Part shown: one piece after another, positions 7,304-63,601 of the stretch
How positions within the stretch are numbered: the stretch's first letter is position 1
How the letters are laid out: the number at the start of each line of letters is the position of its first letter
Translations under genes and position numbers: made by a program
The notes under the pieces: model-generated
Database searches by the model: none
Seen by the model: only the letters and a program-made list of their open reading frames with translations
What the model was told of the DNA's origin: nothing
NCBI GenBank assembly: GCA_000621425.1
Contig: JHYJ01000007.1
Span: forward strand, 186,001 to 250,000
DNA from: Lachnospiraceae bacterium AB2028
Lineage (GTDB): Bacteria > Bacillota > Clostridia > Lachnospirales > Lachnospiraceae
DNA: 64,000 bases
Direction: 5' to 3'

Positions 7304-8521
7304 TCATCTATTCCACACAAGGTCTAAATCAACTCTCGTATTTATCCCGTCAATCGTCCCCGATGATGTATACTGCCACAGTGCGAAATCACCGGTATAT
7401 AATGGTGTCTTCCTATATTCCGCAAGCCAATGAGTAATGTCATTTAACTCGCTGTCATTGAGTTTGTTGTAGTACCATGACCGGCAGGTATATATGCCGC
7501 CGTGATAGCCGGCATTTTCAATGGTCTGGCAGAAAGCCCTGCAGACTGCCGTTCTGGTAGCATTGTCCAGCGAATCGGCACGGCCGCCACTGGACTCCAC
7601 ATCTATGAAGATGGGGAAATCAATCTTCTGTCCCTGAAGAAGGGCCACTGCCATGGAGGCTTCTTCAACAGCTTCCACTTCGTTTACTGCCTGTGAGAAG
7701 AAGTAAAGTCCTACATCTATTCCGGCTGCCTTGGCTCCCGCAAGGTTCTGCTCGAAATAAGGATCAACCACAAGGCTTCCGCTGGAAGATCCCCTGTATC
7801 CACAGCGGATGATCGCAAACTCTACACCGGATGCTGCCACCTTTTCCCAGGCTATGTCTTTCTGCCACTTGGAAACATCTATACCGAAGACGGCATCCGA
7901 TCCTTCCCATCTGGTACGGACTTCCGTGTCATCCACGTCCTCTATCTCATTCTGATCCTCCGTGTCTTCCACGGCAGCATCTATTTCGCTTTCATCATGC
8001 ATATAAAGGCGGATGTCATCTATCACTTCATATTCAATCTGATCCTTCACCGCCACACGCATAGGTTCATTAGGAATGACATAACCATCAACAGGTTGCA
8101 GGGTCACAAAATAATCTCCTGCCTTTATCTCCGGAACATAGATCATTCCGTCCTGGTCCAGGTCCTTGTACTCACCTAAGCCTTCTATGCTGACATAAAA
8201 AGACTGACCTGTCACCGGGTTTCCCCTGGAATCAGTAACAGTCAGTCTGATATCCTGCATCACGCTGTATCCTTGCAGATAAAGCCTCGGCACAGATTCC
8301 GTCTGTGACTGATCGGATCGCGATACCGGATCCGGATCAAAAAAATTTTCATCCTTCAAAAAGTCCCTGTAACCGTCATCCTCCTCCTTGGCTTCCTGAA
8401 CATTTTCAGGCTGCCCGTTAGCCGGCGTGGACGGCTTATTCGTATACCACACCAGTGCAAAAGCAAAGAGCACGACACTCACTGCTGCCACAATGGCAAA
8501 GAACTTTACCTTAGAGTCCAT
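7304..8521 (-). CDS. Membrane-anchored GH25 muramidase-like protein
   Basis: The 405-aa protein starts at the ATG at 8521, with GAGG five bases upstream, rather than at the TTG two codons earlier. A single membrane segment at residues 7-26 would anchor it with the C-terminus outside. Residues 80-170 resemble a prealbumin/Cna-B-like beta domain ([19 protein letters not shown]). Residues 212-405 are a GH25 lysozyme domain with FGIDVSKWQ (D215) and IFIDVES (D307, E309) as the expected catalytic acids. It overlaps the end of rfbA by 11 bp. The domain order parallels the much larger protein at 10523-13690. It may trim peptidoglycan where the polysaccharide is attached; that role is inferred from context. 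Confidence 0.88.
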
Positions 8522-9380
8522 TAGCAACCTCAGTCAGATATTTGCCGTAAGCAGTCTTCATCAACGGCTCGGCAAGTTCCAATAGCTGTTCCTTGGTGAT
8601 AAAACCTCTCTTGTACGCTATTTCTTCGATGCATGAAATATACAGTCCCTGTCTCTTCTGGAAAGCAGCAACAAAATCCGCAGCGTCCAGCAATGCATCG
8701 TGGTTTCCTGTATCCAGCCACGCAAAGCCACGTCCCAGCGGTTCTACATGAAGTGTTCCACGATTTAAGTATTCATTATTGATACTGGTTATCTCTATCT
8801 CGCCCCTTGCGGAAGGCTTGACATTCTTAGCAATTTCAACAACATCATTGTCGTAAAAATACAATCCCGGAACAGCATAATTGCTCTTGGGATTTTCCGG
8901 CTTTTCCTCAATGGAAACAGCCATTCCGTTCTCGTCAAACTCTACCACGCCATATTCCCTGGGGTCACGGACATAGTAACCGAATATGGTAGCTCCCTTT
9001 TCCCTGGTAGCTACTTCCCTTAAAAGTTTAGAAAAGCTCTGGCCATAGAAAATATTGTCACCCAGGATCAGGCATACACTGTCATCACCTATGAAATCTG
9101 CACCTATAATGAAGGCATCAGCCAGTCCTCTGGGCACTTCCTGTACCGCATATTCAAAACGCATTCCCAGTTGTGAACCGTCTGATAAAAGCTCCTCAAA
9201 TACAGGAAGGTCACGCGGTGTGGAGATTATCATTACCTCCCTGATCCCAGCAAGCATCAGGATGGAAAGAGGATAATATATCATAGGCTTGTCATAAACA
9301 GGCATTATCTGTTTTGACACAGCCTTTGTTAACGGATAAAGTCTGGTGCCGGATCCGCCGGCCAATATTATTCCCTTCAT
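8511..9380 (-). CDS. rfbA: Glucose-1-phosphate thymidylyltransferase
   Basis: This 289-aa protein is a full-length RmlA, starting [18 protein letters not shown] with the nucleotide-binding GGSGTR loop, followed by [18 protein letters not shown] and LGDNIFYGQ. It makes dTDP-glucose from glucose-1-phosphate and dTTP, the first step to dTDP-rhamnose. A GGAGGTAA site precedes the ATG. Its 3' end overlaps the anchored GH25 gene, so the two are translationally linked. Confidence 0.96.
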
Positions 9381-10522: not shown

Positions 10523-13500
10523 TTAATATCCTAAATAACTGATGTTCATGTCCACATTGCCTTTTATTCCATCCACTGATCCTTTTGCAGTGTGCTGCCA
10601 AAGGTCATACTTTCCGCTGAAAGTAGGCTTTGATGCATACTGTGCAAGCCAGATCTTGTATCCGCTCAAAGAACCAAAATTGACATTGTTATTATACCAT
10701 GCCTTTGATGCATATACGCCCGGAGTATATCCACCACTCTTTATGGTCTCACAGAAAGCCCTGCAGACCGCAGTCCTCTGCTCAGCACTTATGCCATCAG
10801 CCCTTCCGCCGCAGGCTTCCGTATCAATGAATACCGGATAACCTATACCCAGTCCCTTAATAAGAGAAAGGGTCATGGAAGCTTCTTCCACCGCCTCTAC
10901 TTCATTTATCGCCTGGGTAAAGAAATAAACACCAACCTTAAGGCCTGCAGCCCTTGCCCCCTGGACATTGCTCTTGAATTTCGGATCGGTTACCAGTACT
11001 CCGGAAGACGAACCCCTGTAGCCGCATCTTACTATTACAAAGCTAATGCCGGAATCCCTGACAGCATTCCAGTCTATAGTGCCGTTCCACTTCGAAACAT
11101 CTATACCGATCGACCCATTCTTATCAACCGAAAGTATACCTTCATCAGTAAACTTATATTCAACACCCTGGATGATCTGTGTACCGGTAACCTTATTGCC
11201 GTTCTTGTCATAGTAGTACACGTTGCCGTTTATTGTCTGCCATCCCTTGTAAATATAGGCACTTTCGTTCTTGATATAAAACTTCTCTGCAGTATAATAA
11301 TCCGCTACAACTGCTTCCCTGTGCTTGCCATTTTCCTTTACATATACCTGATTGCCCTTGCTGTCCTTAAGAAGTGTCTTCTTATCATCCATTCCCTTGG
11401 GCGTAGGTGTAGGAGTTGCCGTTACACTGGCACTTGGGCTTGCGCTGGCACTAGGCGTTGCAGTTACAGATGGTGATGCCGACGGTGTAGCTGTTGCTGA
11501 AGCCTTAGGCGTTGCAGTTGCCGTAGGCGTAGGCGTAGCTGTCGCCTGTGGAACAGGCGTAGGGGTCGGTACAGGTGTAGGTGTAGGCGCCGGTGTGGGA
11601 GTCGGTGCCGGTGTAGGCGTAGGTGCCGGTGTACTTGTCGCTGTAGGTGCACTTGTTGCAGTAGCCTCAGGAGTACTCGTCGCCGTAGGCTCTTCAGTAG
11701 TCACGGTAGTAGGAGTATCCTCAGATGTCTTAACCACAGTGCCTAACACATATTTTGCCCCACAAGCCGAATCTGCTGCCATGGCAGGAAGTGTAACATC
11801 AGCTGTATTCATTGCACTGCTGGCAGGATCAGGTATATCTTCTTTTTTTATTTTCTCATACTCATCCGCCCCACTCTTTACACTTCTGCTGGATTCTACA
11901 AATTCAACAGTATCGGTAACTGTAGGTGCCTCCTCAACCACAGGAGGAGCACTGTTTTCCTTATCCTCAACAGCGACATTGACTTCAGTTTCCGTCTTTA
12001 TTTCCTGGGTCACATCAATCTGTTCGTATACGATCTTGTCTTCCACATGTATCTTTGTATCATATTCCGCAAAAACAAGACCATCCACAGGATCTATTTC
12101 AACTGTGTAGTCTCCACTTTCTACATTGGTCTCATAAATGATTCCGTCCAGGTCAGAGTCCTTGAATACCGTCTCTTTATCATTTTTGTCTGTCAGATGC
12201 ACGACGAATTCCGTATCTTTGACGAGTTTGTCAGTCTCATTATCTATGAATTTTATTTTGAGATCCTTTTCAAGAGATGTGAAAGTGACTTTTACTTTAT
12301 TACCTTCCTCATCATCGTCATCATCCTGATCTTCATCATCTGCCTGTTGATCTTCTTCTGCCTCAGCCGCTAACTTAGCCGCAAGTTTTGAATCAGCCAC
12401 AGCCATAAGCCCGGCCTCTCCGGCAACAGAAACATTCCCCAGCATTGCCCCTGTGTCTGCAATCTTCTTTGACATGTTCTTCTGGTTCCTGCCGGAATTG
12501 ATGGAAAAGACTGCGATCAGACACACCAAAAGCAAGGCAACAGCTGCAACAATTGATGCAATCTGCTGCGTCTTCTTATCGTGCATAAGCTTATCAGCGA
12601 TAAAGGTAACCTTTTCCTTGAAATCTTTTTCCTTAAAAGGCTTCTCTACAACGCCGTTCTTGTTCTTCTTTAGTGAAGGATCAGTCTTCTTTGCTGCTGT
12701 TCCTTTATTTTTCTTGTCTGAAGGATTTTTTGCGTCCTTTTCTTTATCTTTCTTTAATCTGTTATCTGCGGACTTTTTTTCTTTCTTATCTTTCCTGGCT
12801 ACGGGATCTTTTCCCTTATGTTTCCTTTCCCTGCTGTCCGCTGCCTTTTTCTCTTTTTTATGCTTTTCCTTTCCCGCTTTTTCGGATTTCTCTGCTTTAT
12901 CCGCTTTTTTCTGCTTGTCCTTTCTTCTGACAGGCGCAGCATCTATTTCTGCATCCGAAAAATCGTCATCCTCTTCCCCGTATTCTTCCTCATATTCATC
13001 GGTATCATCAGCGGAATTTTCATCATACTCGTCATCGTATTCATCGGAGTCATCGTACTCCTCTTCATATTCATCCAAGTCATCATCGCCGTCATACGCG
13101 TCATCTTCCGGTTCAGACTCTGCCTCGTCTCCATCAAATTCATCTATGTTTTCACCAAACCCGTCTTCAGGGCCGTCAAAATCATCGTCCGCGATTTCAT
13201 CGTCTATTTCAGGCAGATCATCATCTTCTGTGTCATCTGCTCCCTCGAACACTTCCGGCTCATCATACTTATCCAGATCCGCAAATTCGTCAGTTTCAGG
13301 CTCATTCCGACGTACCCGCCTTACTTTACGGCCCTTTTTTGCAGCTGACTTGTCTGCAATCCGGGGCTCTTCCGCACTGTCTTCAGGCACAACATCATCC
13401 ACCAGGACATCCTCTATGATCTCCCCCTGGAAAATTTCACTACCGGCATGTTCCTCATCTGCCCCACCATTTTCGAAAGTCTCGACATGGCTGTCATACT

Positions 13501-13690
13501 CAGGCGTTTCTTCCGGCTCATCGTAATCATCGAAACCTTCGTCACCGTTTTCGGCATAGTCTTCATCCAAAAAATCCCCATCATTTAAGGGTTCAGGATC
13601 CCTGTCGTCACGCCCGTCAGAAACCATGCGCTCAAGTACGCCGGTATCGTCAATGTCTATGAATTCAATTTTGTCTTTATTCTTACCCAT
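10523..13690 (-). CDS. Giant anchored GH25 protein with charge-block cytoplasmic tail
   Basis: The 1055-aa protein has an unusual order. Residues 1-250 are extremely acidic (runs of D, E and Y). Residues 255-365 are extremely basic (Lys-rich). A single membrane helix lies at 376-397. Outside, residues 450-462 are an acidic run and 465-560 a Cna-B/prealbumin-like domain. Residues 657-765 are a Thr/Pro/Ala/Ser spacer. Residues 765-855 hold a cell-wall-binding-like repeat (GWQTINGNVYYYDKNGNKV). Residues 860-1055 are a GH25 lysozyme domain with D864 in GIDVSKW and D956/E958 in FIDTE. It would be a type II membrane muramidase whose spacer reaches into the wall. The ATG has no clear Shine-Dalgarno. 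It is a larger paralogue of the protein at 7304-8521, and the two flank rfbBA. Confidence 0.88.
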   Translation of the reverse strand: MGKNKDKIEFIDIDDTGVLERMVSDGRDDRDPEPLNDGDFLDEDYAENGDEGFDDYDEPEETPEYDSHVETFENGGADEEHAGSEIFQGEIIEDVLVDDVVPEDSAEEPRIADKSAAKKGRKVRRVRRNEPETDEFADLDKYDEPEVFEGADDTEDDDLPEIDDEIADDDFDGPEDGFGENIDEFDGDEAESEPEDDAYDGDDDLDEYEEEYDDSDEYDDEYDENSADDTDEYEEEYGEEDDDFSDAEIDAAPVRRKDKQKKADKAEKSEKAGKEKHKKEKKAADSRERKHKGKDPVARKDKKEKKSADNRLKKDKEKDAKNPSDKKNKGTAAKKTDPSLKKNKNGVVEKPFKEKDFKEKVTFIADKLMHDKKTQQIASIVAAVALLLVCLIAVFSINSGRNQKNMSKKIADTGAMLGNVSVAGEAGLMAVADSKLAAKLAAEAEEDQQADDEDQDDDDDEEGNKVKVTFTSLEKDLKIKFIDNETDKLVKDTEFVVHLTDKNDKETVFKDSDLDGIIYETNVESGDYTVEIDPVDGLVFAEYDTKIHVEDKIVYEQIDVTQEIKTETEVNVAVEDKENSAPPVVEEAPTVTDTVEFVESSRSVKSGADEYEKIKKEDIPDPASSAMNTADVTLPAMAADSACGAKYVLGTVVKTSEDTPTTVTTEEPTATSTPEATATSAPTATSTPAPTPTPAPTPTPAPTPTPVPTPTPVPQATATPTPTATATPKASATATPSASPSVTATPSASASPSASVTATPTPTPKGMDDKKTLLKDSKGNQVYVKENGKHREAVVADYYTAEKFYIKNESAYIYKGWQTINGNVYYYDKNGNKVTGTQIIQGVEYKFTDEGILSVDKNGSIGIDVSKWNGTIDWNAVRDSGISFVIVRCGYRGSSSGVLVTDPKFKSNVQGARAAGLKVGVYFFTQAINEVEAVEEASMTLSLIKGLGIGYPVFIDTEACGGRADGISAEQRTAVCRAFCETIKSGGYTPGVYASKAWYNNNVNFGSLSGYKIWLAQYASKPTFSGKYDLWQHTAKGSVDGIKGNVDMNISYLGY

Positions 13691-54326: not shown

Positions 54327-55349
54327 TTATTTCACCTCTTCTCCGCCCCACTCTACTACGGAGAATCCGTTCCTTTCAAAGCCGTCAAAGCTCTGGGGCT
54401 CTATCTCAACATACTCGTCAACAGCCTGCCATGCCATCATTACACGCAGCATATCAGCTTCTTCACCGTCAGCCGCAACGACTTCCAGTGGGCAGGACTC
54501 AGCATAGCTGTCAGCCTGGAATGAGATCAGGTTGTACTCATTGTCCTGCATCCTGGGCAGCCAGTATACTATGAACTCATTAGCCTCATCCGTGTTAAGT
54601 CCTATATCAGCAAGGGCAGTACGCAGGAACTCGGCAGTATCCTCGCCCTTTACACAGAAACCCTGTGAGAAATCAGGCTCTGCATAATTAGAAGCTTCCC
54701 AAAACAGGTATGAATACTCTGTTCCGTCTGCATCATAAAGGGTACCGTCAGGAAGTGCATGCATGTTCCATACATACTCGTCCCCATCCATCACGGGATC
54801 AGGATAAGTGCAGAGCATCTCGCCGTCGTTTAACTTAAGCCTTACCTCTACATCTGTTTCATTTTCCGGATAAACATAGATAACCGGCTTTTCTGCTTCC
54901 ATAGGATAAGGATCGTAATAAGGATCGGCATCGGTGTACGGATCATAATAGTATGAATACTCTTCATTCATGTAGTCGACAATTGCTTCCATTCCGCTGC
55001 ATATCTCATTTACTGTGCGCTCCTGCTTGGAGATGCTCTCCGCACAGTTAGACAGGTCCATGGACATCTCATCCATCACTATGTCCAGCCTGATGAACAT
55101 TACCGTTGTAATGCCTGCAAATATGATCAGGAGCAGAGCATTGATTACGAGCGCGGCTATCATTATCCCTTTCTGCTTCTTTAATTCCGACACAACACTG
55201 TCGATAGAATGGACAGTCTGCGGTGCAGGAATATAAGAATTGTCCTGATAACCATTATAGCCGCCGTTCTGATACGGATTGGGCTGATACGCATTCTGTA
55301 CCGGAGTGTAGCCCGGCTGATTCCCCATGATATTACTCTGATTATCCAT
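54327..55349 (-). CDS. Single-pass KPVIYLYP-domain surface protein, copy 2
   Basis: The 340-aa protein has an Asn/Gln/Tyr/Pro-rich N-terminal tail (residues 1-48), a membrane helix at 61-87, a short acidic Tyr-rich stretch and an ectodomain starting KPVIYVYPE at 154-162 and ending ERNGFSVVEWGGEEVK. The KPVIYLYP domain occurs in many bacterial proteins of unknown function. AAGGACAGG precedes the ATG. It is a tandem copy of the gene at 55598-56752; the ectodomain DNA is nearly the same by eye. No catalytic motif is recognised. Confidence 0.8.
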   Translation of the reverse strand: MDNQSNIMGNQPGYTPVQNAYQPNPYQNGGYNGYQDNSYIPAPQTVHSIDSVVSELKKQKGIMIAALVINALLLIIFAGITTVMFIRLDIVMDEMSMDLSNCAESISKQERTVNEICSGMEAIVDYMNEEYSYYYDPYTDADPYYDPYPMEAEKPVIYVYPENETDVEVRLKLNDGEMLCTYPDPVMDGDEYVWNMHALPDGTLYDADGTEYSYLFWEASNYAEPDFSQGFCVKGEDTAEFLRTALADIGLNTDEANEFIVYWLPRMQDNEYNLISFQADSYAESCPLEVVAADGEEADMLRVMMAWQAVDEYVEIEPQSFDGFERNGFSVVEWGGEEVK

Positions 55350-55597: not shown

Positions 55598-56752
55598 TTA
55601 CTTTACTTCTTCTCCGCCCCACTCTACTACAGAGAAACCGTTTCTTTCGAATCCTTCAAAGCTCTGGGGCTCTATCTCGACATACTCGTCAACAGCCTGC
55701 CATGCCATCATTACACGCAACATATCAGTTTCTTCACCGTCAGCCGCGATGACTTCCAGCGGGCAGGACTCAGTATAGTTCTCAGCCTGGAATGAGATAA
55801 GGTTGTACTCATTGTCCTGCATCTTAGGCAGCCAGTATATTATGAACTCGTTGGCCTCATCTGCAGTAAGTCCTATTTCTGTCAGGGTAGCGCGAAGGAA
55901 CTCGGCTGTGTCCTCACCCTTTACACAGAATCCCTGTGAAAAATCAGGCTCTGTATAGCCGGAAGCCTCCCAGAACAGGTATGAATATTCTGTACCGTCT
56001 GCATCATAAAGAGTTCCGTCAGGAAGTGCATGCATGTTCCATACATACTCCTCTCCCTCTATCACAGGATCGGGATATGTGCAGAGCATCTCGCCTTCGT
56101 TTAACTTAAGCCTTACTTCCACATCTGTTTCATTTTCAGGATAAAGATATATTACAGGCTTGTCTTCAGTATAGGGATAATAAGGATCATAAGGGTCCTC
56201 ATAATAATACGGATCACTATATGAATACTCACCATTTATGTATTCAACGATACCTTCCATACCATTGCTTATGGCTGTAATCGTGCGTCCCTGCTTGCAG
56301 ATGCTTTCCTCGCAGTTAGACAGATCATACGCCATATCCTGGGTAACAATATCAAGACGGATGAACATCACCGTCGTAATGGCAGCAAATGCGAGCAACA
56401 ACAATGTGTTTAGAATAAGCGCAGTTATCATCACGCCCTTCTGCTTTTTTAATTCAGACACAACACTGTCGATACTGTGAGTGCTCTGTGCCGGCGCCGG
56501 AATATATGCACCGCTGCCATATGAAGCGTTCTGATAAGCATTGCCCTGATACGAATTAGCTGAATAACTATTGGCGCCGTAAGAACCGTTCTGGTTCGAA
56601 TTCGGCTGATATGAATTCTGAACAGGGGTATAATCCGGCTGAACGGCAGTCTGTCCCTGCACACTTTCACTGTTCAGTGCCTGTGTATTCGAAACATCCT
56701 GAGTAATCCCGGATGTCTCCGTATTCTGTGTGTTCACGCTCTGGTTATCCAT
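55598..56752 (-). CDS. Single-pass KPVIYLYP-domain surface protein, copy 1
   Basis: The 384-aa protein has a longer Asn/Gln/Ser/Tyr-rich tail (residues 1-90), then HSIDSVVSELKKQKG, a membrane helix at 107-132, a Tyr/Asp-rich stretch, and KPVIYLYPE at 198-206 leading the ectodomain. The tail holds repeated NSYxxN-like units, so it looks disordered and on the cytoplasmic side. AGGAGG precedes the ATG. It is the upstream member of the tandem pair; divergence is concentrated in the tail. Confidence 0.8.
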   Translation of the reverse strand: MDNQSVNTQNTETSGITQDVSNTQALNSESVQGQTAVQPDYTPVQNSYQPNSNQNGSYGANSYSANSYQGNAYQNASYGSGAYIPAPAQSTHSIDSVVSELKKQKGVMITALILNTLLLLAFAAITTVMFIRLDIVTQDMAYDLSNCEESICKQGRTITAISNGMEGIVEYINGEYSYSDPYYYEDPYDPYYPYTEDKPVIYLYPENETDVEVRLKLNEGEMLCTYPDPVIEGEEYVWNMHALPDGTLYDADGTEYSYLFWEASGYTEPDFSQGFCVKGEDTAEFLRATLTEIGLTADEANEFIIYWLPKMQDNEYNLISFQAENYTESCPLEVIAADGEETDMLRVMMAWQAVDEYVEIEPQSFEGFERNGFSVVEWGGEEVK

Positions 56753-56841: not shown

Positions 56842-59559
56842 TTATGGCAGCTCTTCCCAATTTTCTTCATCTGAAAAATCATCCCTGACCCTAAACCACC
56901 GGTTATCATTCGAAATAAATGTATAACCGTTATTTATTGCCACATTGTAGTAATCGCTGCGAACCACTAATATTCCATCCTTCTTCCCGTCCATAGTAAT
57001 CTCATTGCCCGTGAAAGGATTTGCCGTCACGCCATCTCCAATACCTGCAGTTGCCAGCGCCACAGTATCAGCATTTGTCATAAATGAGGTATCTGTAGTG
57101 AATCCGCTGTCGCCAAAGTCCTTCACCATAAGAAGCGCGTTAATACCCTCGGCATCTATACCATTATCCATAACTAAATCATCAAAATGATGCATCTCTC
57201 CACCATGATCAGATACGAGTATTATCCTTGTATTATCATATACACCCCATTCCCTTAATTGGTCAAACCAGTCCCCGAGTTTCAAAAAAGCAGCCATTGT
57301 AGAATGATATGATCCAAGATTTGACTCAATATTATCCGGATCAAACCTAAGAGTCCTGCCATCAATAGTCCGTTCAGTAAGTACAGCTTCCTTAAGCATC
57401 TCCGGATCTGCCGGTACAATATCATAGTCCGGAAGGCTTAATAATGCAGGCTCATGCGGGGTATTATTACATAGGAGAAAAAAGCAGTCTCCAGCGTTAA
57501 CAGGGTAACACAATGCTTCAAGATTTTCCAATACAGAATAGGCATTATAAAATGCAACACCTCCGCATTCCATAACCCGGTTGCCGCTTAAATACTTACC
57601 CCTGTCGTAAATCTCATCCTGAAAAGTAGCCGGAGTAAGCTTCATTAGGCCATAGAAAAAGAAATTCCTTTCACGTGTCTTACGAAATGATGCCTCGTCG
57701 AAACCCGACGGCAGATTTCCGGCATATTCATGATACACAATATCCGGATAATCCTCGAAAAGAGGGGCACCATCCTCGTCATAATGGATATAGGGCAGAT
57801 CAGCCACATTCACCTCATAGCCTGCCGAATCAAAAATGACCGGCATAACTTTAAGTGCCTCATCATTCTTGTCTGCCAGAAGCACATCGTTCCTTTCATT
57901 CATAGAGTCAGGCGTATACTCATACCCGCCATACAGGGGAGGTGCGCCGAAATTCGTATGGAATCCCGGTGATACTGTATTAGGATAATATGTAAAACCG
58001 TCGAATTTCTCCAATAGTTCCGGCTTTTCATCCATAAGGAACGGTACATATGCGCCCACAGCCCTATCAAGCATAATAACAACCACATTCCTACCATTTT
58101 TACTAAAAGGTAATTCTGCCGATCCCCCCTGTGATTGGTCTGCCCTGCTAAATTCCACGCTGCTCTTATTGACCGCATTCTGTATCCGTATAGCATAGAA
58201 TGCGAATCCGACTGATAAACTGAACGCTATTACAGTAAGCATCAGCCGGGCCACTCTCGGCTTTTTGATCACTATCACAAATGCAGGTATAGGAAGTATG
58301 CAGACCAGCAAGAGATTAATCAGCTGATAGTTCCTTTCAAAATAGGGGATCAATGTGCATACAAGATCTGTAGTAATAGTTCCTGTCTGTGCCCTGAAAA
58401 AAAACAAGTCAACAATAAAGACTATTATGAATGCACACAGCACCGCCTCAAATATCCGCTTCCCATTAGGAGATGAAAAATAATAGACTATGTTTCCCCA
58501 TACAAAACAGGCTCCAACCGCAACGCAAGCAGCTGAGAATACATAATGCAGCGGCGTAAGTCCTTTGTCGGCTACATAAAATTCAAGCGGAGAGGCTCCA
58601 ATAAGAAGAAGCTGCGGAATACAGGAGATAACCAGCGTCAAAATAAGCTCCGCAAGCAGAAGAATTGTAATTCCGGTACGGGTGTCTATATCATTCGCTT
58701 TTATCCGCACGAATCTTCCGGCCAGTCCGGTACCATAGAATGCCACCGAACACAGAATGATAAAGCCGGCAAAATAAAGAATTATCTCATCATCCCGACC
58801 AATGAGAGCATCCTTAAGCTTACCGCTCGCAACGGTATAAACCAAAAATGCTGCAGCCAGAAAGCCATAAAGCGCCGTAATGGCATATCCCGGATGCTTC
58901 ATATACTTTTCAGCAATATTCTTACATAAGGAATATACATTATTCATAGTCCAGTAAAGCACCAACAGTGCGGGACTTTTATATAAAAGCACCAGAAACA
59001 CAAGCGCCATTACATAAGGCTGGATTTTTTCCCTTGCAGATAAGCCTTTAGTATAAATTGCCGAAGAAACCATATTAATAAAGGTCATCAAAATAGGCAG
59101 CACATTTATAGAAAAGCTCCCAATCTGAAAAAGCCCATCTTCATGCATAAGATCAGGAATTGGTCCGAAGGCAGATATCTGTCCCAAGTTAATTCCCGAA
59201 AGAAAATGGTATGCTGCAAGAAAAAAAGGTATCTGTAACAATAGAGGTGCCATACCTTTGATAGAAGAAAGCTGACTATACCCCATCTCATTATAATATG
59301 CTGACAGGATTAACATCCTCTCATCTCCGGAGAAAGCCTTCTTGATATGCTGTATCCAAGAAGCCATCTCTTTTTGACGGCATCGTTCTTTCTCTTGAAC
59401 AAGTTCAGCCTTATTGTAAAGCGGCAACACCAGTGTACTAACCAGTATACTTACAGCAATCACCGCAAGGCCGGCATTGCCAAGAAAGCCGTACATCGTG
59501 ATGAAAACCACCTCTATGAGATATTCTATTGGCTGTATAAAAATATCATAAAGTATCAT
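56842..59559 (-). CDS. YidC/Oxa1-like domain fused to a sulfatase-type ectodomain, copy 2
   Basis: I use the ATG at 59559 (MILYDIFIQPIEYLIEVVF), matching the paralogue's start, not the TTG that overlaps the previous gene. The protein is 905 aa. Residues 1-225 are YidC-like, with LAVIAVSILV and PLLLQIPFFLAAYHFLSG, and about six or more membrane helices follow to residue 460. Residues 490-905 are an alkaline-phosphatase/sulfatase-superfamily domain: VVVIMLDRA (D498), HTNFGAPPLYGGYEY near 535-547 holding the likely Thr/Ser nucleophile, NTPHEP (H702) and VSDHGGEMH (D784, H785). The groove Arg of YidC is Ser41 here. LtaS-like phosphoglycerol or phosphoethanolamine transfer is possible; the function is unknown. 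Confidence 0.85.
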   Translation of the reverse strand: MILYDIFIQPIEYLIEVVFITMYGFLGNAGLAVIAVSILVSTLVLPLYNKAELVQEKERCRQKEMASWIQHIKKAFSGDERMLILSAYYNEMGYSQLSSIKGMAPLLLQIPFFLAAYHFLSGINLGQISAFGPIPDLMHEDGLFQIGSFSINVLPILMTFINMVSSAIYTKGLSAREKIQPYVMALVFLVLLYKSPALLVLYWTMNNVYSLCKNIAEKYMKHPGYAITALYGFLAAAFLVYTVASGKLKDALIGRDDEIILYFAGFIILCSVAFYGTGLAGRFVRIKANDIDTRTGITILLLAELILTLVISCIPQLLLIGASPLEFYVADKGLTPLHYVFSAACVAVGACFVWGNIVYYFSSPNGKRIFEAVLCAFIIVFIVDLFFFRAQTGTITTDLVCTLIPYFERNYQLINLLLVCILPIPAFVIVIKKPRVARLMLTVIAFSLSVGFAFYAIRIQNAVNKSSVEFSRADQSQGGSAELPFSKNGRNVVVIMLDRAVGAYVPFLMDEKPELLEKFDGFTYYPNTVSPGFHTNFGAPPLYGGYEYTPDSMNERNDVLLADKNDEALKVMPVIFDSAGYEVNVADLPYIHYDEDGAPLFEDYPDIVYHEYAGNLPSGFDEASFRKTRERNFFFYGLMKLTPATFQDEIYDRGKYLSGNRVMECGGVAFYNAYSVLENLEALCYPVNAGDCFFLLCNNTPHEPALLSLPDYDIVPADPEMLKEAVLTERTIDGRTLRFDPDNIESNLGSYHSTMAAFLKLGDWFDQLREWGVYDNTRIILVSDHGGEMHHFDDLVMDNGIDAEGINALLMVKDFGDSGFTTDTSFMTNADTVALATAGIGDGVTANPFTGNEITMDGKKDGILVVRSDYYNVAINNGYTFISNDNRWFRVRDDFSDEENWEELP

Positions 59560-59567
59560 ATAGTGTA

Positions 59568-62120
59568 CTATTTTACCCAATTCCAGTTATCAAGATCAAA
59601 TATATCATCATGTACAGAAATCCAGTGCTGAGATTCATTATCATATGTTATTGCATCCGGCTCTTCAAGAACAATACTTCCCGGGAAAATGATTACCTGA
59701 TCATGGGAATACTTTTCCGAACTATCAATTGCCACACCTGTATATGGATTGATGGGATTCTCTATCAAACCCGAAACAGCTATCGTCGGTGTATCCGCAT
59801 TTGTCATAAACGTATTGTCTTCCGAAATATCTCCGTGAGAGTTAAAATCCTTCACCATAAGTACGGGCTGAAACTGTAAAACATCGCATCGATTCTCCAA
59901 ATCATATGGCTCATCTATTATTAGATCCGGAAACTCGAAAGTAGGCTTCCCATGATCCGCTACGATAATTATCCGCGTATTATCATACAGATCATTTTCC
60001 CTAAGATAATCAAAATAATCTGCCAGTCTCAGATATGCGGAAACACTACTATGATAGTAACAACTATCCATATTCAGGTATATCCTATTTCCCAAATCAT
60101 TCTCTCTATAATACTCACTTTCATCATCCACATAGGTCAACAGATCCAAATCTTCATTATAATCCGGAAGGCTCAGTCGTATCGGCTCATGTGCTGTATC
60201 ATTATTTAGTAATAATAATGTATTTACATCGTCTGAAGTTATTTCTGTCAGTGTAGAAAGCTTTTCCAGCACACTCACAGCCTCAAAATATCGAGATTGT
60301 CCACCTGATAATTTCAACAAGCCATCTGCAGAATAATACCTTCCTGCATCATAAACTTTGCTCTGAAGGATCACAGGCATACATTTCATAATCGAATACA
60401 TAAAAAATGCACGCTGACGATTACTTTCATATTCATCCAGACCATCCATATAATATCCCATTGTGTTTAATGCTTTTACACCGGGAATCCCATCAAAAGC
60501 CGCCGGATCAGATACATTTTCAAAACCGGCAAATGGTATATCACACGCGGTTACCTCATAACCCGCGTTTGAAAAAACTCTTGCCAACATGGTGTCTGCT
60601 TCATACCTTTTTTGCTCCTGATTCTTCGTAAGATCACGATCCGACACAGAAGGAACATATTCATATCCTCCCCACACTCCCTGTGAGCCCACGGAAGTAA
60701 ATCTCCCGAAAGAAACGGTATTGGGATAAAAAACAAATCCCTCAAACTTGTTTTTAAGTTCAGGTTTCTCATGCATAATATATGGCACATACACTCCCAT
60801 CGCTGCATCAAGACATATTACCATAACATTCTTCCCTGTTTTACTCAGCCTGAATATAGGTTCATTTTGGTCTCTCTTTTCTTTAACCGAAGGGTCTATA
60901 CTTTCAGCAGCCCGCAATGTAGTGCTACAATCTCTCAGCGATATGATAACCATCGTTGCAGATAATATTAGCAATGCCGCCTTCACAATTCCTTTTTTAT
61001 ATTTCCATAGCAATATACCAATAACAAGAAATACTACCACCATTAATAAATTAATTATCTTTTCCTTATGATCAAAAGAAATATAATTATTCTGGTACAA
61101 CAAATCTGCAGAAATTATTCCTAACTCATGTCCAAAAAACATATAATTAAACACCGCAATACATCCAAATACAGAAATTATCATACAAATTAGTTTTCTT
61201 ACTGAAGATACACTCAGTAAATAAAAAACCGACATCCATACAATGAAATATCCCATAGCAATACAAAATGTGCTGATAACATAATGTATCGGATGTCTAT
61301 AATCAACCATCAAAATAAATTCTAACGGCGAAGCTGCCACCAATGCAGCCGGTATTGCAAGTCCGCAAAGCATTGTCAGACATATCTGTGCAGGCACAAT
61401 ATCATTGAAATTAAGACTATCCTCCTTCTGCTCAGCTTTTGGTTTTTCCACTATTCCAATGGTTTTCATCACAACATTCTTACAAAGGGAAAAAAGATTA
61501 TTCAGAGTCCAGTAGAATACGAGACCTGAGGGACTACCATACAAAAAGAATAAAAATAATAAAGCCAAGCCATATGTCTGCAGCTTACTTTTAAGCGGGA
61601 ATCCCTTTAAATAAATAACACCGGACAATACATTTATTAAAGTCATTAAAATAGGCAATAGATTAACACTTATTCCATAAATATCAATCAAGCCATCCGG
61701 TTTGCTGAGATCTCTCAATATCCAGAATGATTCACCTTCCAGAATATCCAGACTACTCAAAAAATGGTATGCAGCAATAAAAAAAGGAATTTGTAAGAAA
61801 ACCGGCAGTATCCCTCGTAATGCATACAATGGACGATACCCCACTTCTTTATAGTAAGCTGATAACATCATATATCGTTCATCACCACGGAAAGCACTAT
61901 TGATTTTTTGGATATACGGCTTCATCTGCTCCTGTTTTTTCCGCTCTTCCTCCTGGGCTGCATCTGCCCTTCTGTAGATCGGCAACACAAGAAGATTGAC
62001 AGCTAAACTGACACCAATTATAGCTAAACCTGAACTTCCGAACTGACGATACAGGATTACAAAAATCACTTCCACAATTAACTCTATTGGTTTTATAAAA
62101 ATATCATAAATATACATCAT
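59568..62120 (-). CDS. YidC/Oxa1-like domain fused to a sulfatase-type ectodomain, copy 1
   Basis: The 850-aa protein starts MMYIYDIFIKPIELIVEVIF, with AGGA five bases before the ATG. Residues 1-225 are YidC-like (LRGILPVFLQIPFFIAAYHF), then further helices to about 400. Residues 430-850 are the sulfatase-type domain: VMVICLDAA (D438), FGRFTSVGSQGVWGGYEY with candidate Thr475/Ser476, DTAHEP (H644) and VADHGKP (D722, H723). The YidC groove Arg is Asn42. It ends with a Trp-rich tail (HWISVHDDIFDLDNWNW), paralleled in copy 2. The pair lies 8 bp apart and is probably one transcript. No clear promoter is found in the 77 bp upstream. Confidence 0.85.
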   Translation of the reverse strand: MMYIYDIFIKPIELIVEVIFVILYRQFGSSGLAIIGVSLAVNLLVLPIYRRADAAQEEERKKQEQMKPYIQKINSAFRGDERYMMLSAYYKEVGYRPLYALRGILPVFLQIPFFIAAYHFLSSLDILEGESFWILRDLSKPDGLIDIYGISVNLLPILMTLINVLSGVIYLKGFPLKSKLQTYGLALLFLFFLYGSPSGLVFYWTLNNLFSLCKNVVMKTIGIVEKPKAEQKEDSLNFNDIVPAQICLTMLCGLAIPAALVAASPLEFILMVDYRHPIHYVISTFCIAMGYFIVWMSVFYLLSVSSVRKLICMIISVFGCIAVFNYMFFGHELGIISADLLYQNNYISFDHKEKIINLLMVVVFLVIGILLWKYKKGIVKAALLILSATMVIISLRDCSTTLRAAESIDPSVKEKRDQNEPIFRLSKTGKNVMVICLDAAMGVYVPYIMHEKPELKNKFEGFVFYPNTVSFGRFTSVGSQGVWGGYEYVPSVSDRDLTKNQEQKRYEADTMLARVFSNAGYEVTACDIPFAGFENVSDPAAFDGIPGVKALNTMGYYMDGLDEYESNRQRAFFMYSIMKCMPVILQSKVYDAGRYYSADGLLKLSGGQSRYFEAVSVLEKLSTLTEITSDDVNTLLLLNNDTAHEPIRLSLPDYNEDLDLLTYVDDESEYYRENDLGNRIYLNMDSCYYHSSVSAYLRLADYFDYLRENDLYDNTRIIIVADHGKPTFEFPDLIIDEPYDLENRCDVLQFQPVLMVKDFNSHGDISEDNTFMTNADTPTIAVSGLIENPINPYTGVAIDSSEKYSHDQVIIFPGSIVLEEPDAITYDNESQHWISVHDDIFDLDNWNWVK

Positions 62121-62197: not shown

Positions 62198-62425
62198 CAT
62201 ACCCCTTCTTTACCTTCTCTATAGGTATAGGGTATGCTGTTGAAGATGCTGTGGATTGGTTTTTGTCCTCCTACCGCATAGACGGTTTTGAATAGGCTCC
62301 AACCACAGCCTCTTTGTCAAAGTGTTAATCAGTTAGATACCGCATGACGGTTTATGTAGAACGAGGTTACATCGGCAGAGAGCCCTGTGGATCCAATACA
62401 GCGTCAAATACTTTTAAGGAGGATC
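62198..62425 (+). ncRNA. Candidate IS110 bridge RNA region
   Basis: This non-coding stretch directly before the transposase is rich in stems. CATACCC (62198-62204) pairs with GGGTATG (62230-62236). GCTGTGG-A-TTGG (62248-62259) pairs with CCAA-CCACAGC (62299-62309), with one bulged A. Inside that loop CCTA/TAGG and ACCG/CGGT can nest. TACCGCATAGACGGTTT (62272-62288) recurs as TACCGCATGACGGTTT (62338-62353). IS110-family elements are known to encode a bridge RNA with two guide loops in a non-coding end, often before the transposase. Ends of the RNA are not defined. Confidence 0.5.
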
Positions 62426-62431
62426 ATGTGT

Positions 62432-63601
62432 ATGATCTATGTTGGTATCGATGTTGCAAATGATAAACACGATTGCTGCATCCTGGGATCAGAAGCCGAT
62501 AATCTCTATCCGGTATTTACTATCCCGAATAACAAGACAGGCTTTGATGAGTTGTATGAGAAGATTTTCTCAGTGACTGATGATAGGACCGAAATAAAAG
62601 TAGGTCTTGAAGCTACCGGTCACTACTCACTCAATCTTCTCGGATCGCTCACTGATAAAGGTCTACCCACCTGTGTTATCAACCCGCTACATACAAATCT
62701 TTACAGAAAAGGTCTAAGCCTTAGAAAGACGAAAACGGATAAAGTCGATGCTGGTTCGATTGCTATGATGTTGATGACTGATAAGACTCTCAAGCCCTAC
62801 TCAAACACATCATATCACAGCGAAGAACTCAAGTCATTAACCCGTTACCGTTTTGACAAGGTTCAGGAGCGGGCCAAGCTTAAATCGTCTGTGGCTCGGC
62901 TTATTAACATCCTGTTTCCGGAACTGGAAAAGCTCGTTCCTAATCTTCATATGGCTTCTGTGTACGCCTTACTTTCTGAGTTTCCCGGTGCTTCTTACAT
63001 CGCTGAAAGTCACCTTACACATCTAAGAAATGTCCTTGAAACAGCTTCTAAGGGACGCTACGGACGAGATATGGCTGTCACCATAAGAGATGCTGCAAAG
63101 GATTCAATCGGTTCTGTTATGCCGGCGAAATCAATGGAGTTGAAGCACACCATCCATCTGATCAAGGTGATGACGGATGAGATTGATGAAATCGAAGCTT
63201 CAATCAAATCCATTATGGATACTTGCAACTCTCCGATTATGACAATCCCTGGTATTAGCTACCGTATGGGAGCCATGATTCTTGCAGAGATTGGCGATTT
63301 CAACCGCTTCAGCAATGCCGATCAGATACTTGCATTTGCAGGCTTATCGCCATCTACATATCAGTCAGGGCAGCTTGATTCAAGCTATTCCCATATGGAA
63401 AAACGAGGATCCCGTTACCTGAGGTATGCTTTGTTTAATGCCACTAAGTTCGTCTGCAAATGGGATGAAAACTTCGGAGCTTACCTTTCTAAGAAAATAA
63501 GCGAAGGCAAGCACTACAATGTTGCAGTCGGTCATGCAACGAAGAAGCTGATACGCACCATCTACCGAATGGAACTTACAGGCGAAGCCTACCGAAAATA
63601 G
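62432..63601 (+). CDS. IS110-family transposase
   Basis: The protein of about 389 aa starts MIYVGIDVANDKHDCCIL, with AAGGAGG nine bases upstream; an ATG two codons earlier is closer to the site. The N-terminal DEDD RuvC-like domain shows GIDVA, KVGLEATGHYSLNL and TKTDKVDAGSIAMM. The C-terminal Transposase_20 domain has TIPGISYRMGAMILAEIGDF and FAGLSPSTYQSGQ, with the catalytic-Ser region SGQLDSSYSHMEKRGSRYLR. The frame is intact, so the element may be active. Confidence 0.95.
   Translation: MIYVGIDVANDKHDCCILGSEADNLYPVFTIPNNKTGFDELYEKIFSVTDDRTEIKVGLEATGHYSLNLLGSLTDKGLPTCVINPLHTNLYRKGLSLRKTKTDKVDAGSIAMMLMTDKTLKPYSNTSYHSEELKSLTRYRFDKVQERAKLKSSVARLINILFPELEKLVPNLHMASVYALLSEFPGASYIAESHLTHLRNVLETASKGRYGRDMAVTIRDAAKDSIGSVMPAKSMELKHTIHLIKVMTDEIDEIEASIKSIMDTCNSPIMTIPGISYRMGAMILAEIGDFNRFSNADQILAFAGLSPSTYQSGQLDSSYSHMEKRGSRYLRYALFNATKFVCKWDENFGAYLSKKISEGKHYNVAVGHATKKLIRTIYRMELTGEAYRK

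Follow-up and report, generated by a model that had tools for sequence, protein, structure and literature searches.

The minus strand of the window, a stretch of 64,000 nt from Lachnospiraceae bacterium AB2028 (JHYJ01000007.1, 186,001-250,000; all positions follow window numbering), carries two adjacent genes, A and B, each encoding a YidC fold, more membrane helices and an alkaline-phosphatase-superfamily ectodomain in a single protein (Table 1). The YidC fold is truly fused to an enzyme whose probable job is to decorate the cell surface with small charged groups that contain phosphorus (aminoethylphosphonate or phosphocholine, for example), and the fusion family is widespread among gut and rumen bacteria. 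As a reading of the whole we lean towards a relay, in which genes A and B would encode extracytoplasmic phospho-/phosphono-substituent transferases forming its outer half.

Table 1. The two fusion genes and their parts, in window coordinates.
Feature	Position	Strand	Basis or remark
Fusion gene A	59568..62120	-	850 aa, ATG start; YidC fold, five helices and ectodomain
Gene A YidC/Oxa1 domain, residues 1-220	61461..62120	-	PF02096 match; position 42 in the groove is Asn
Gene A five-helix segment, residues 242-406	60903..61397	-	Structure model; number and place as in EptA/LtaS
Gene A ectodomain, residues 428-850	59571..60839	-	Structure search; D438, T475, H644, D722, H723
Fusion gene B	56842..59559	-	905 aa from ATG at 59559
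Gene B YidC/Oxa1 domain	58900..59559	-	PF02096, E 5e-20; groove residue is Ser
Gene B hydrophobic stretches between the two domains	58120..58887	-	Alignment reading
Gene B alkaline-phosphatase-superfamily ectodomain	56845..58107	-	Pfam and alignment

Structure and recurrence of the fusion

A sequence-only reading of this DNA had described two neighbouring genes joining a YidC domain to a metal-dependent superfamily ectodomain through extra helices, and both Pfam and structure models bear this out. The open reading frame of gene B was listed as 56842-59580 (912 aa from a TTG), although the ATG at 59557-59559, 8 bp past the gene A stop, is the more likely start. A mis-joined gene or assembly error, which that reading had named as a possible undoing of its claim, is ruled out because the AB2028 genome contains seven fusion ORFs without internal stops (and, by genome search, one ordinary yidC), and because 77 fusion loci were retrieved from other genomes. 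The fusion recurs in 105 distinct proteins, a subset of 117 ORFs of at least 800 aa defined by a match at E<=1e-100 to the profile of a 13-row alignment (A1); they comprise the 13 rows of A1 and 92 proteins from 75 of the 77 loci. The fusions at L081 and L112 were missed by the ORF caller, and both have a complete membrane half in the membrane-half listing. No report of a YidC-ectodomain fusion was found in the literature searched, which consisted of titles and abstract openings and covered few subscription papers.

The N-terminal assignment is secure in both genes; a lack of any YidC match in residues 1-225 would have told against the sequence-only reading, and PF02096 matches residues 31-219 of gene A (E 5.9e-27, 95.1 bits) and residues 37-221 of gene B (72.5 bits), against a Pfam cut-off of 35. 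An AlphaFold model of gene A residues 1-430, the second of two and built on an alignment of 70 membrane halves, has a pLDDT of 91.4 and a pTM of 0.87, and its YidC part superposes on Bacillus halodurans YidC (3wo6) with Z 17.9 over 202 of 212 residues, cytosolic hairpin included. In Gram-positive YidC a positively charged residue in the hydrophilic groove is important. At this position all 105 fusions have Asn, Ser or Gln, whereas 24 of 25 ordinary YidC proteins have Arg or Lys; the exception is the AB2028 genome's own ordinary YidC, which has Tyr there, and so the loss of groove charge is not unique to the fusions.

The Pfam search, which that reading had suggested for each half, confirmed YidC but left the Sulfatase family (PF00884) below its cut-off in both genes (E ~8e-4, 19.2 bits against 25), and therefore the ectodomain assignment needed evidence beyond Pfam. 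Three paralogues do reach that cut-off (C4:296130, C5:56197 and C4:215941, the last together with in-frame neighbours). With the AlphaFold model of the whole of gene A (13-sequence alignment; pLDDT 77.9, pTM 0.62), the best 50 rows of VIA range in Z from 18.5 to 20.9 and match the alkaline phosphatase superfamily, almost always over residues 427-850; within these rows the Z-scores do not tell transferases from sulfatases and phosphonate hydrolases. The best two Foldseek matches of the model are the phosphoethanolamine transferases MCR-1 and EptA, the third is a phosphonate monoester hydrolase, and LtaS-type enzymes are also among the best of the 50 rows listed.

Sulfatases and phosphonate monoester hydrolases use formylglycine made from Cys or Ser, the type I sulfatase motif being C/S-x-P-x-R, while transferases of the alkaline phosphatase superfamily use Thr. 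Five residues (D438, T475, H644, D722 and H723), which from known motifs we take to be the metal-site and nucleophile positions of LtaS and EptA, are invariant in all 105 fusions; the formylglycine motif is absent and Thr stands in the nucleophile place throughout, in a MAFFT alignment in which LtaS-like rows are poorly aligned near that Thr. The Thr assignment leans on this alignment and on the known motifs because, when profiles of the ectodomain and of the LtaS-like proteins in this genome were aligned, only 30 columns were covered, up to the DH pair, at a probability of 45. Since the five catalytic positions are invariant, with Thr as putative nucleophile, a transferase seems the likelier identity of the ectodomain; a plain sulfatase is disfavoured, and the earlier label of that name calls for correction.

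The idea that an Oxa1-like fold here takes the place of the usual membrane anchor has likewise to be given up. The anchor of LtaS and EptA consists of five helices, and the gene A model retains five beyond the YidC fold (242-263, 277-302, 305-329, 351-374 and 376-406), with a weak fold match (Z 4.5) to the membrane part of MCR-1. The middle part of gene B contains, by alignment only, a hydrophobic insert absent from gene A (approximately columns 232-305 of A1).

Partner genes, donor genes and other YidC fusions

A gene of the CDP-glycerol-transferase family (IDPGTGS-PF04464) adjoins the fusion on the same strand in 54 of the 77 loci, most commonly with a gap of -4 bp; it is present somewhere in 57 loci and absent from 20, some of which lie on short contigs. 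Genes for activated donors (CDP-choline, CMP-phosphonate or related) occur in 30 of 77 loci and in none of 20 control windows, the latter taken at fixed steps, not at random, along three contigs of two fusion genomes. Choline genes account for 17 of these loci, phosphonate genes for seven and nucleotidyltransferase-CobD genes for eight, with two loci having both choline and phosphonate genes; no donor gene lies within ~7 kb in the other 47, where again some contigs are short. Each donor label is the best BLAST match to any of 15 panel proteins at E<=1e-10 and does not amount to a family test of the gene; LicC and PntC labels were not counted.

The association holds between genomes as well as within loci. 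In two draws of 291 genomes of the class (the same genomes, as far as listed), 8 of the 9 fusion genomes have a close form of the PF04464 transferase (E<=1e-100) and none of the 282 others does (Fisher p 8e-15, ignoring kinship), the nine belonging to four genera and six of them to one. The fusion genome G909 has no PF04464-transferase match at E<=1e-30. PEP mutase is present in 4 of 5 fusion genomes compared with 24 of 290 others in the order (p 3e-4); G151 is the fusion genome without it. One genome (G041) has two pairs of fusion and PF04464 genes; a complete AEP gene run accompanies the first, and choline genes lie near the second. Schwartzia succinivorans DSM 10502 (L109) has a fusion, an IDPGTGS-PF04464 gene and AEP genes together in 17 kb.

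AB2028 itself encodes the set of enzymes for CMP-2-aminoethylphosphonate: PEP mutase, phosphonopyruvate decarboxylase, AEP transaminase and a nucleotidyltransferase, the last identified by Pfam and the others by NCBIfam equivalogs above their cut-offs (TIGR02320, TIGR03297 and TIGR03301). The only PF04464 transferase found in the genome, with an N-terminal IDPGTGS hydrophobic segment, sits in this gene run, which is on another contig than genes A and B, and none of the AB2028 fusions is near it. The two-gene picture of the sequence-only reading leaves out this transferase, the other half of the proposed system, which lies elsewhere. A search of the AB2028 genome found no choline kinase. In place of the CMP-2-aminoethylphosphonate genes, relatives carry CDP-choline, hydroxyethylphosphonate-type or nucleotidyltransferase-CobD-like genes.

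Some relatives carry a different fusion, of YidC with the cytosolic PF04464 transferase, and in four of five such cases (L051, L052, L053 and L054; L052 by profile) a separate superfamily ectodomain enzyme is encoded beside it. The fifth (L177) lies within a phosphonate gene run, with no superfamily ectodomain enzyme recognised in 19 kb. YidC changes fusion partner between the putative inner and outer enzymes, which is what a middle component would be expected to do. Another locus (L153) combines an AEP gene run, a PF04464 gene and two superfamily enzymes with no YidC match in 13.5 kb, and YidC may thus be dispensable in some cases. The groove position is Lys in all four YidC-PF04464 proteins examined. 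A YidC tree was built from 32 fusion rows (those of the AB2028 genome and its relatives plus 25 at random, from 99 found), 25 ordinary rows and four YidC-PF04464 rows; four relatives' rows were lost with short duplicate loci and two fragments were excluded. The two YidC groups each occupy one side of a branch with support of 100, while a test placing them in one clade gave a p-AU of 0.53 (L001 left out), a result that neither demonstrates nor rejects a common origin.

A proposed relay and its rivals

In proposing how these parts might work together, we begin from what is evident at the gene level: the CMP-2-aminoethylphosphonate enzymes and a cytosolic PF04464 transferase are encoded in one gene run. 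The PF04464 protein would transfer the group from CMP or CDP to a membrane lipid. The YidC fold would then handle the loaded lipid and allow or assist the passage of its charged head to the outer side, a role proposed for a fold without the groove Arg/Lys of most insertases compared. Finally, Thr475 would hold the group covalently and hand it on to a surface glycan; the catalytic residues are conserved, and the substrate is suggested by context. The group in AB2028 is most likely 2-aminoethylphosphonate, and its seven paralogues probably serve different acceptor glycans. An outer-transferase role paired with the cytosolic PF04464 transferase is the part we consider likely; that the YidC fold flips the lipid is an appreciable possibility, though one we would not presume. 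An earlier guess at the acceptor was a lipid-linked glycan or a teichoic-like polymer. A surface glycan is indeed the likely target, but the donor genes nearby favour phosphocholine, a phosphonate (aminoethyl- or hydroxyethyl-) or a group resembling phosphoethanolamine over a teichoic polymer.

The main rival takes the YidC fold as a mere anchor or assembly domain. EptA, LtaS and GacH take phosphoethanolamine or phosphoglycerol from bulk phospholipid, and LicD decorates lipid-linked glycan in the cytosol; the fusion ectodomain could likewise draw on bulk phospholipid while PF04464 separately decorates a lipid-linked glycan. The Foldseek matches to EptA/MCR-1 and LtaS-type enzymes, the five-helix anchor retained in gene A and the enzymes at L153 with no YidC seen are all consistent with this. 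We nevertheless consider it unlikely: the YidC part is highly conserved, with 28 invariant columns in residues 1-220 across 70 membrane halves; its fusion to the cytosolic enzyme in other lineages is hard to square with an anchor; and PF04464 is closely linked to the fusion both by position and by co-occurrence.

A hydrolase that trims or edits surface phosphonate or phosphocholine groups would agree with the phosphonate monoester hydrolases among the best fold and profile matches, but we regard it as improbable, given that such an enzyme should have formylglycine where every fusion has the Thr of superfamily transferases, and that several copies per genome beside synthesis genes fit making better than trimming. 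Lastly, a YidC domain still acting as an insertase, placing its own ectodomain or a partner membrane protein, can appeal to a clear fold and family match and to the strong conservation of the cytosolic hairpin at residues 49-95, yet is very improbable in view of the groove charge missing from the fusions and kept by nearly all ordinary YidC, the ordinary YidC also present in AB2028 and the recurrent donor and phosphate-transfer neighbours.

Implications and known systems

The relay, which remains our preferred reading, suggests that the YidC fold was recruited for lipids rather than proteins. More tentatively, an Oxa1/YidC fold may have quit protein insertion and now serve as flippase or scramblase in a machine that decorates the surface, with inner loading and a Thr-type outer transferase, fused or separate. 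If so, many gut bacteria would have in this system the transfer step so far missing from CMP-AEP tailoring. The family offers candidate genes for phosphonate transfer steps in gut and rumen bacteria, and for the display of phosphocholine there. It is also a natural example of an Oxa1-superfamily fold joined by fusion to enzymes that probably depend on lipids. In vitro, lipids are scrambled by YidC and by further Oxa1 proteins (PMC10491306), an activity that becomes testable here where lipid movement may be the real job.

Most bacterial phosphonate capacity is directed to cell surfaces, and the tailoring that follows C-P bond formation was called enigmatic, in the abstract of Rice et al. 2019 (PMC6697681). 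The PntC/Ppm tailoring treated there shares the CMP-AEP logic, with its genes beside PF04464 in AB2028 or beside the fusions in some relatives. The neighbours it names are LicD-like phosphotransferases and glycosyltransferases, unlike the fusion loci, and the words 'YidC', 'sulfatase' and 'glycerophospho' are absent from its main text.

EptA and MCR-1 (5fgn, 9nww) resemble the fusions in having a superfamily ectodomain behind five helices, and their nucleophile is a Thr, as is proposed for the fusions, but they lack a YidC fold and are only 11-12% identical to the fusion. They use bulk phosphatidylethanolamine. LtaS and LtaP (4uoo, 4uop, 2w5q), which polymerise glycerol phosphate from phosphatidylglycerol, have the same ectodomain fold (Z ~19) and a five-helix anchor, again without the YidC fold. 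With the YidC/SpoIIIJ/Oxa1 insertases (3wo6, 6al2) the fusions have the fold and PF02096 in common, and differ from them in lacking the groove Arg/Lys and in the attached enzyme. There is also an analogy in logic with three-component glycan decoration, which employs a GtrA flippase, a cytosolic GT and an outer transferase. Such systems carry sugars rather than phosphorus groups, rely on GtrA where the fusions would use a YidC fold, and are built from other families; nevertheless, a lipid is loaded in the cytosol, crosses the membrane and gives up its group outside, which is the same order of events that we propose for the fusions.

Architecture and fold of the fusion pair

Genes A and B lie at one edge of a large polysaccharide cluster that encodes glycosyltransferases and an ABC exporter pair (named by sequence reading, with Pfam for some). 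The sequence-only reading had placed a YidC domain at the front of both, and Pfam bears this out (PF02096, E 5.9e-27 in gene A and 5e-20 in gene B); otherwise NCBIfam, beyond its YidC models, gave only a few weak rows for the two genes (E 0.017 or higher). Behind it, PF00884 matches both genes weakly and below cut-off (E about 8e-4). Residues 428-850 of gene A give Z 18.5-20.9 (best 50 rows) against members of the alkaline phosphatase superfamily, to which the ectodomain belongs by its modelled fold. The likelier start of gene B is the ATG at 59559 (905 aa), 8 bp past the gene A stop.

Coordinates of the fusion genes, their neighbours and associated genes
Feature	Location	Strand or position	Remarks
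Gene A	59568-62120	minus	850 aa
Gene B	56842-59580	minus	912 aa from TTG; adjoins gene A
IS110-family transposase	62387-63601	opposite to fusion pair, directly beyond	DEDD_Tnp_IS110 + Transposase_20 (Pfam)
Two tandem paralogous proteins	54327-55349, 55598-56752	same strand as fusion pair, downstream	
Two further fusion paralogues	L039 (window genome, contig C5) 3573-12495	about 3.6-12.5 kb past window	same polysaccharide region
Window genome PF04464 gene	C9:42313 (locus L066, 8941-10296)		N-terminal YIDPGTGSMLF before PF04464; only one found
NTP_transf_3-CobD/HisC-like PLP enzyme fusion	L096 3912-5717, L184 6092-8008		about 600 aa; Pfam
NTP_transf_3-CobD/HisC-like PLP enzyme fusion	L051 2490-4304		about 600 aa; look of sequence

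For residues 1-430 of gene A, its membrane half, a model built from 70 sequences (pLDDT 91.4, pTM 0.87) predicts a YidC core followed by helices at 242-263, 277-302, 305-329, 351-374 and 376-406. Its core aligns with solved YidC structures (3wo6, Z 17.9, rmsd 3.0 over 202 residues, 18% identity; 6al2, Z 17.7). With the whole model, Foldseek placed MCR-1 and EptA at the top, then phosphonate monoester hydrolase, PbgA and LtaP. D438, T475, H644, D722 and H723 are unchanged in all 105 distinct fusions. Around the threonine, a wider alignment shows fusions with, for example, TNFGAPALFGG, separate enzymes with TIIAVPSMFTG and locus L153 with TITSLPALIDG, which we take to resemble the phosphoethanolamine-transferase motif; the LtaS-like rows of the window genome align poorly here.

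The N-terminus is YidC/Oxa1 by fold and Pfam, with the groove charge missing: the groove position (residue 42 of gene A) is Asn in 93, Ser in 10 and Gln in 2 of the 105 fusions, against Arg or Lys in 24 of 25 ordinary YidC rows. This charge is not universal among ordinary YidC, because that of the window genome (L001 / L044 5718-7079), a long branch of 1.41, has Tyr. In the fusions the cytosolic hairpin varies little (His 72 in 66, Glu 81 in 68 and Arg 91 in 65 of 70 rows; both 72 and 91 are Lys in gene A) and may serve for docking.

Several neighbours also merit description. The tandem paralogues downstream apparently have one membrane helix each and share a conserved PVIY(V/L)YPENETDVEVRLKLN stretch; a Pfam search with the one at 54327-55349 gave nothing above cut-off. 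The two further fusion paralogues are separated by a Capsule_synth-type gene (PF05159) and one that reads like an ABC transporter. Elsewhere in the window, 7304-8527 and 10523-13690 encode proteins whose C-terminal domains resemble each other and, by sequence reading, GH25-type lysozymes; the latter protein, the larger, carries very long acidic and Pro/Thr-rich linkers.

Distribution and the PF04464 partner

Of the eight PF02096 genes in the window genome, seven are fusions with frames of 856-1003 aa; the other is an ordinary YidC of 453 aa. A clear fusion was found in 5 of 295 genomes of the order (the window genome G000, G041, G073, G150 and G151), a survey that scored up to three candidates in each genome. 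The class gave 9 of 291. A GTDB genome scan found at least 550 stretches encoding a relative of the query, the fusion state being established for part; the 77 loci retained are, by NCBI rank, 72 from Bacillota (71 Clostridia, 1 Negativicutes), 3 from Actinomycetota and 2 unassigned, and rumen or gut metagenome bins are the named origin of many. No report of this domain combination was found in the literature searched.

At 54 of the 77 loci the fusion adjoins, on the same strand, a gene similar to the PF04464 protein of the window genome (CDP-glycerol:poly(glycerophosphate) glycerophosphotransferase family), mostly of 407-478 aa and with YIDPGTGSMLF or a near variant in its opening part. The commonest spacing, -4 bp, is a sign of translational coupling. 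Of the nine fusion genomes of the class, eight have a close form of the partner, against 0 of 282 others (p 8e-15, uncorrected for kinship, the nine spanning four genera with six from one genus); G909 is the fusion genome in which this survey did not find it. Distant forms in two further genomes, G052 and G903, are both YidC-PF04464 fusions.

Judged by sequence, a hydrophobic segment with the YIDP motif accompanies the fusion/PF04464 system. The motif stands ahead of PF04464 in many relatives, and related versions are found in a small separate protein (L051 13680-13955, L054 6002-6331) and in the N-terminal part of an ectodomain enzyme at L053 (8780-11050).

Donor genes and domain exchange

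Donor-pathway genes, by best BLAST match, are present at 30 of the 77 loci: choline uptake, choline kinase or LicCA-type genes at 17, phosphonate genes at 7 and a nucleotidyltransferase-CobD-like fusion at 8, two loci counting under both choline and phosphonate. Pfam backs PEP_mutase, Choline_kinase, BCCT, EamA, NTP_transf_3, Aminotran_1_2 and Fe-ADH among the panel proteins, and panel matches were absent from all 20 control windows, each 16.7 kb long. Within the order, 4 of 5 fusion genomes encode PEP mutase, versus 24 of 290 others (p 3e-4). G041 has two fusion-PF04464 pairs: at L045 a single run comprises fusion, PF04464, nucleotidyltransferase, 2-aminoethylphosphonate (AEP) transaminase, PEP mutase and phosphonopyruvate decarboxylase, and at L046 BCCT, LicC-like and LicCA-like genes lie nearby on the other strand. 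L183 has, successively on one strand, fusion, NTP-PEP mutase, Fe-ADH, decarboxylase and PF04464. The NTP_transf_3-CobD/HisC-like sequences would be consistent with a phospho-amino acid as the source of a CDP-ethanolamine-like or aminopropanol-like donor.

In the window genome, the PF04464 gene is on a different contig from all seven fusions, beside PEP mutase/cytidylyltransferase, nucleotidyltransferase, phosphonopyruvate decarboxylase and AEP transaminase genes, three genes of this run being NCBIfam equivalogs above cut-off; a search of the genome for choline kinase found none. As the one PF04464 gene found lies in an AEP run, a single AEP-loading enzyme would serve all seven fusions.

At L051, L052, L053 and L054 YidC is instead joined to the PF04464 enzyme, and a gene of its own next door encodes the superfamily ectodomain (below Pfam cut-off at L054, assigned by similarity and profile at L052). 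A fifth such gene, at L177, lies within a phosphonate run (PEP mutase, decarboxylase, nucleotidyltransferase, Fe-ADH), where a superfamily ectodomain was not recognised. Since YidC is joined to the inner or the outer enzyme according to locus, it is a movable part of one system. In the tree, the fusion and YidC-PF04464 groups each occupy one side of a branch, which agrees with either shared or separate origin.

A proposed relay

From gene content, order, co-occurrence, folds and conserved residues we infer a relay in which the PF04464 enzyme would load a lipid, the YidC fold would handle or flip it, and the threonine enzyme would pass the group on to a surface glycan. Flipping is an idea drawn by analogy, with a physical precedent in the in vitro lipid scrambling by YidC, Oxa1 and Get1 that one study reports (PMC10491306). 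Against such a role counts L153, where two superfamily enzymes come after a PEP mutase-decarboxylase-nucleotidyltransferase-transaminase-PF04464 run and no YidC match was found in the 13.5 kb covered. Compared with known systems, the fusions share the fold of ordinary YidC/Oxa1 proteins but lack the groove charge that most of those compared carry, and their ectodomain looks, within its superfamily, most like the EptA/LtaS-type transferases.
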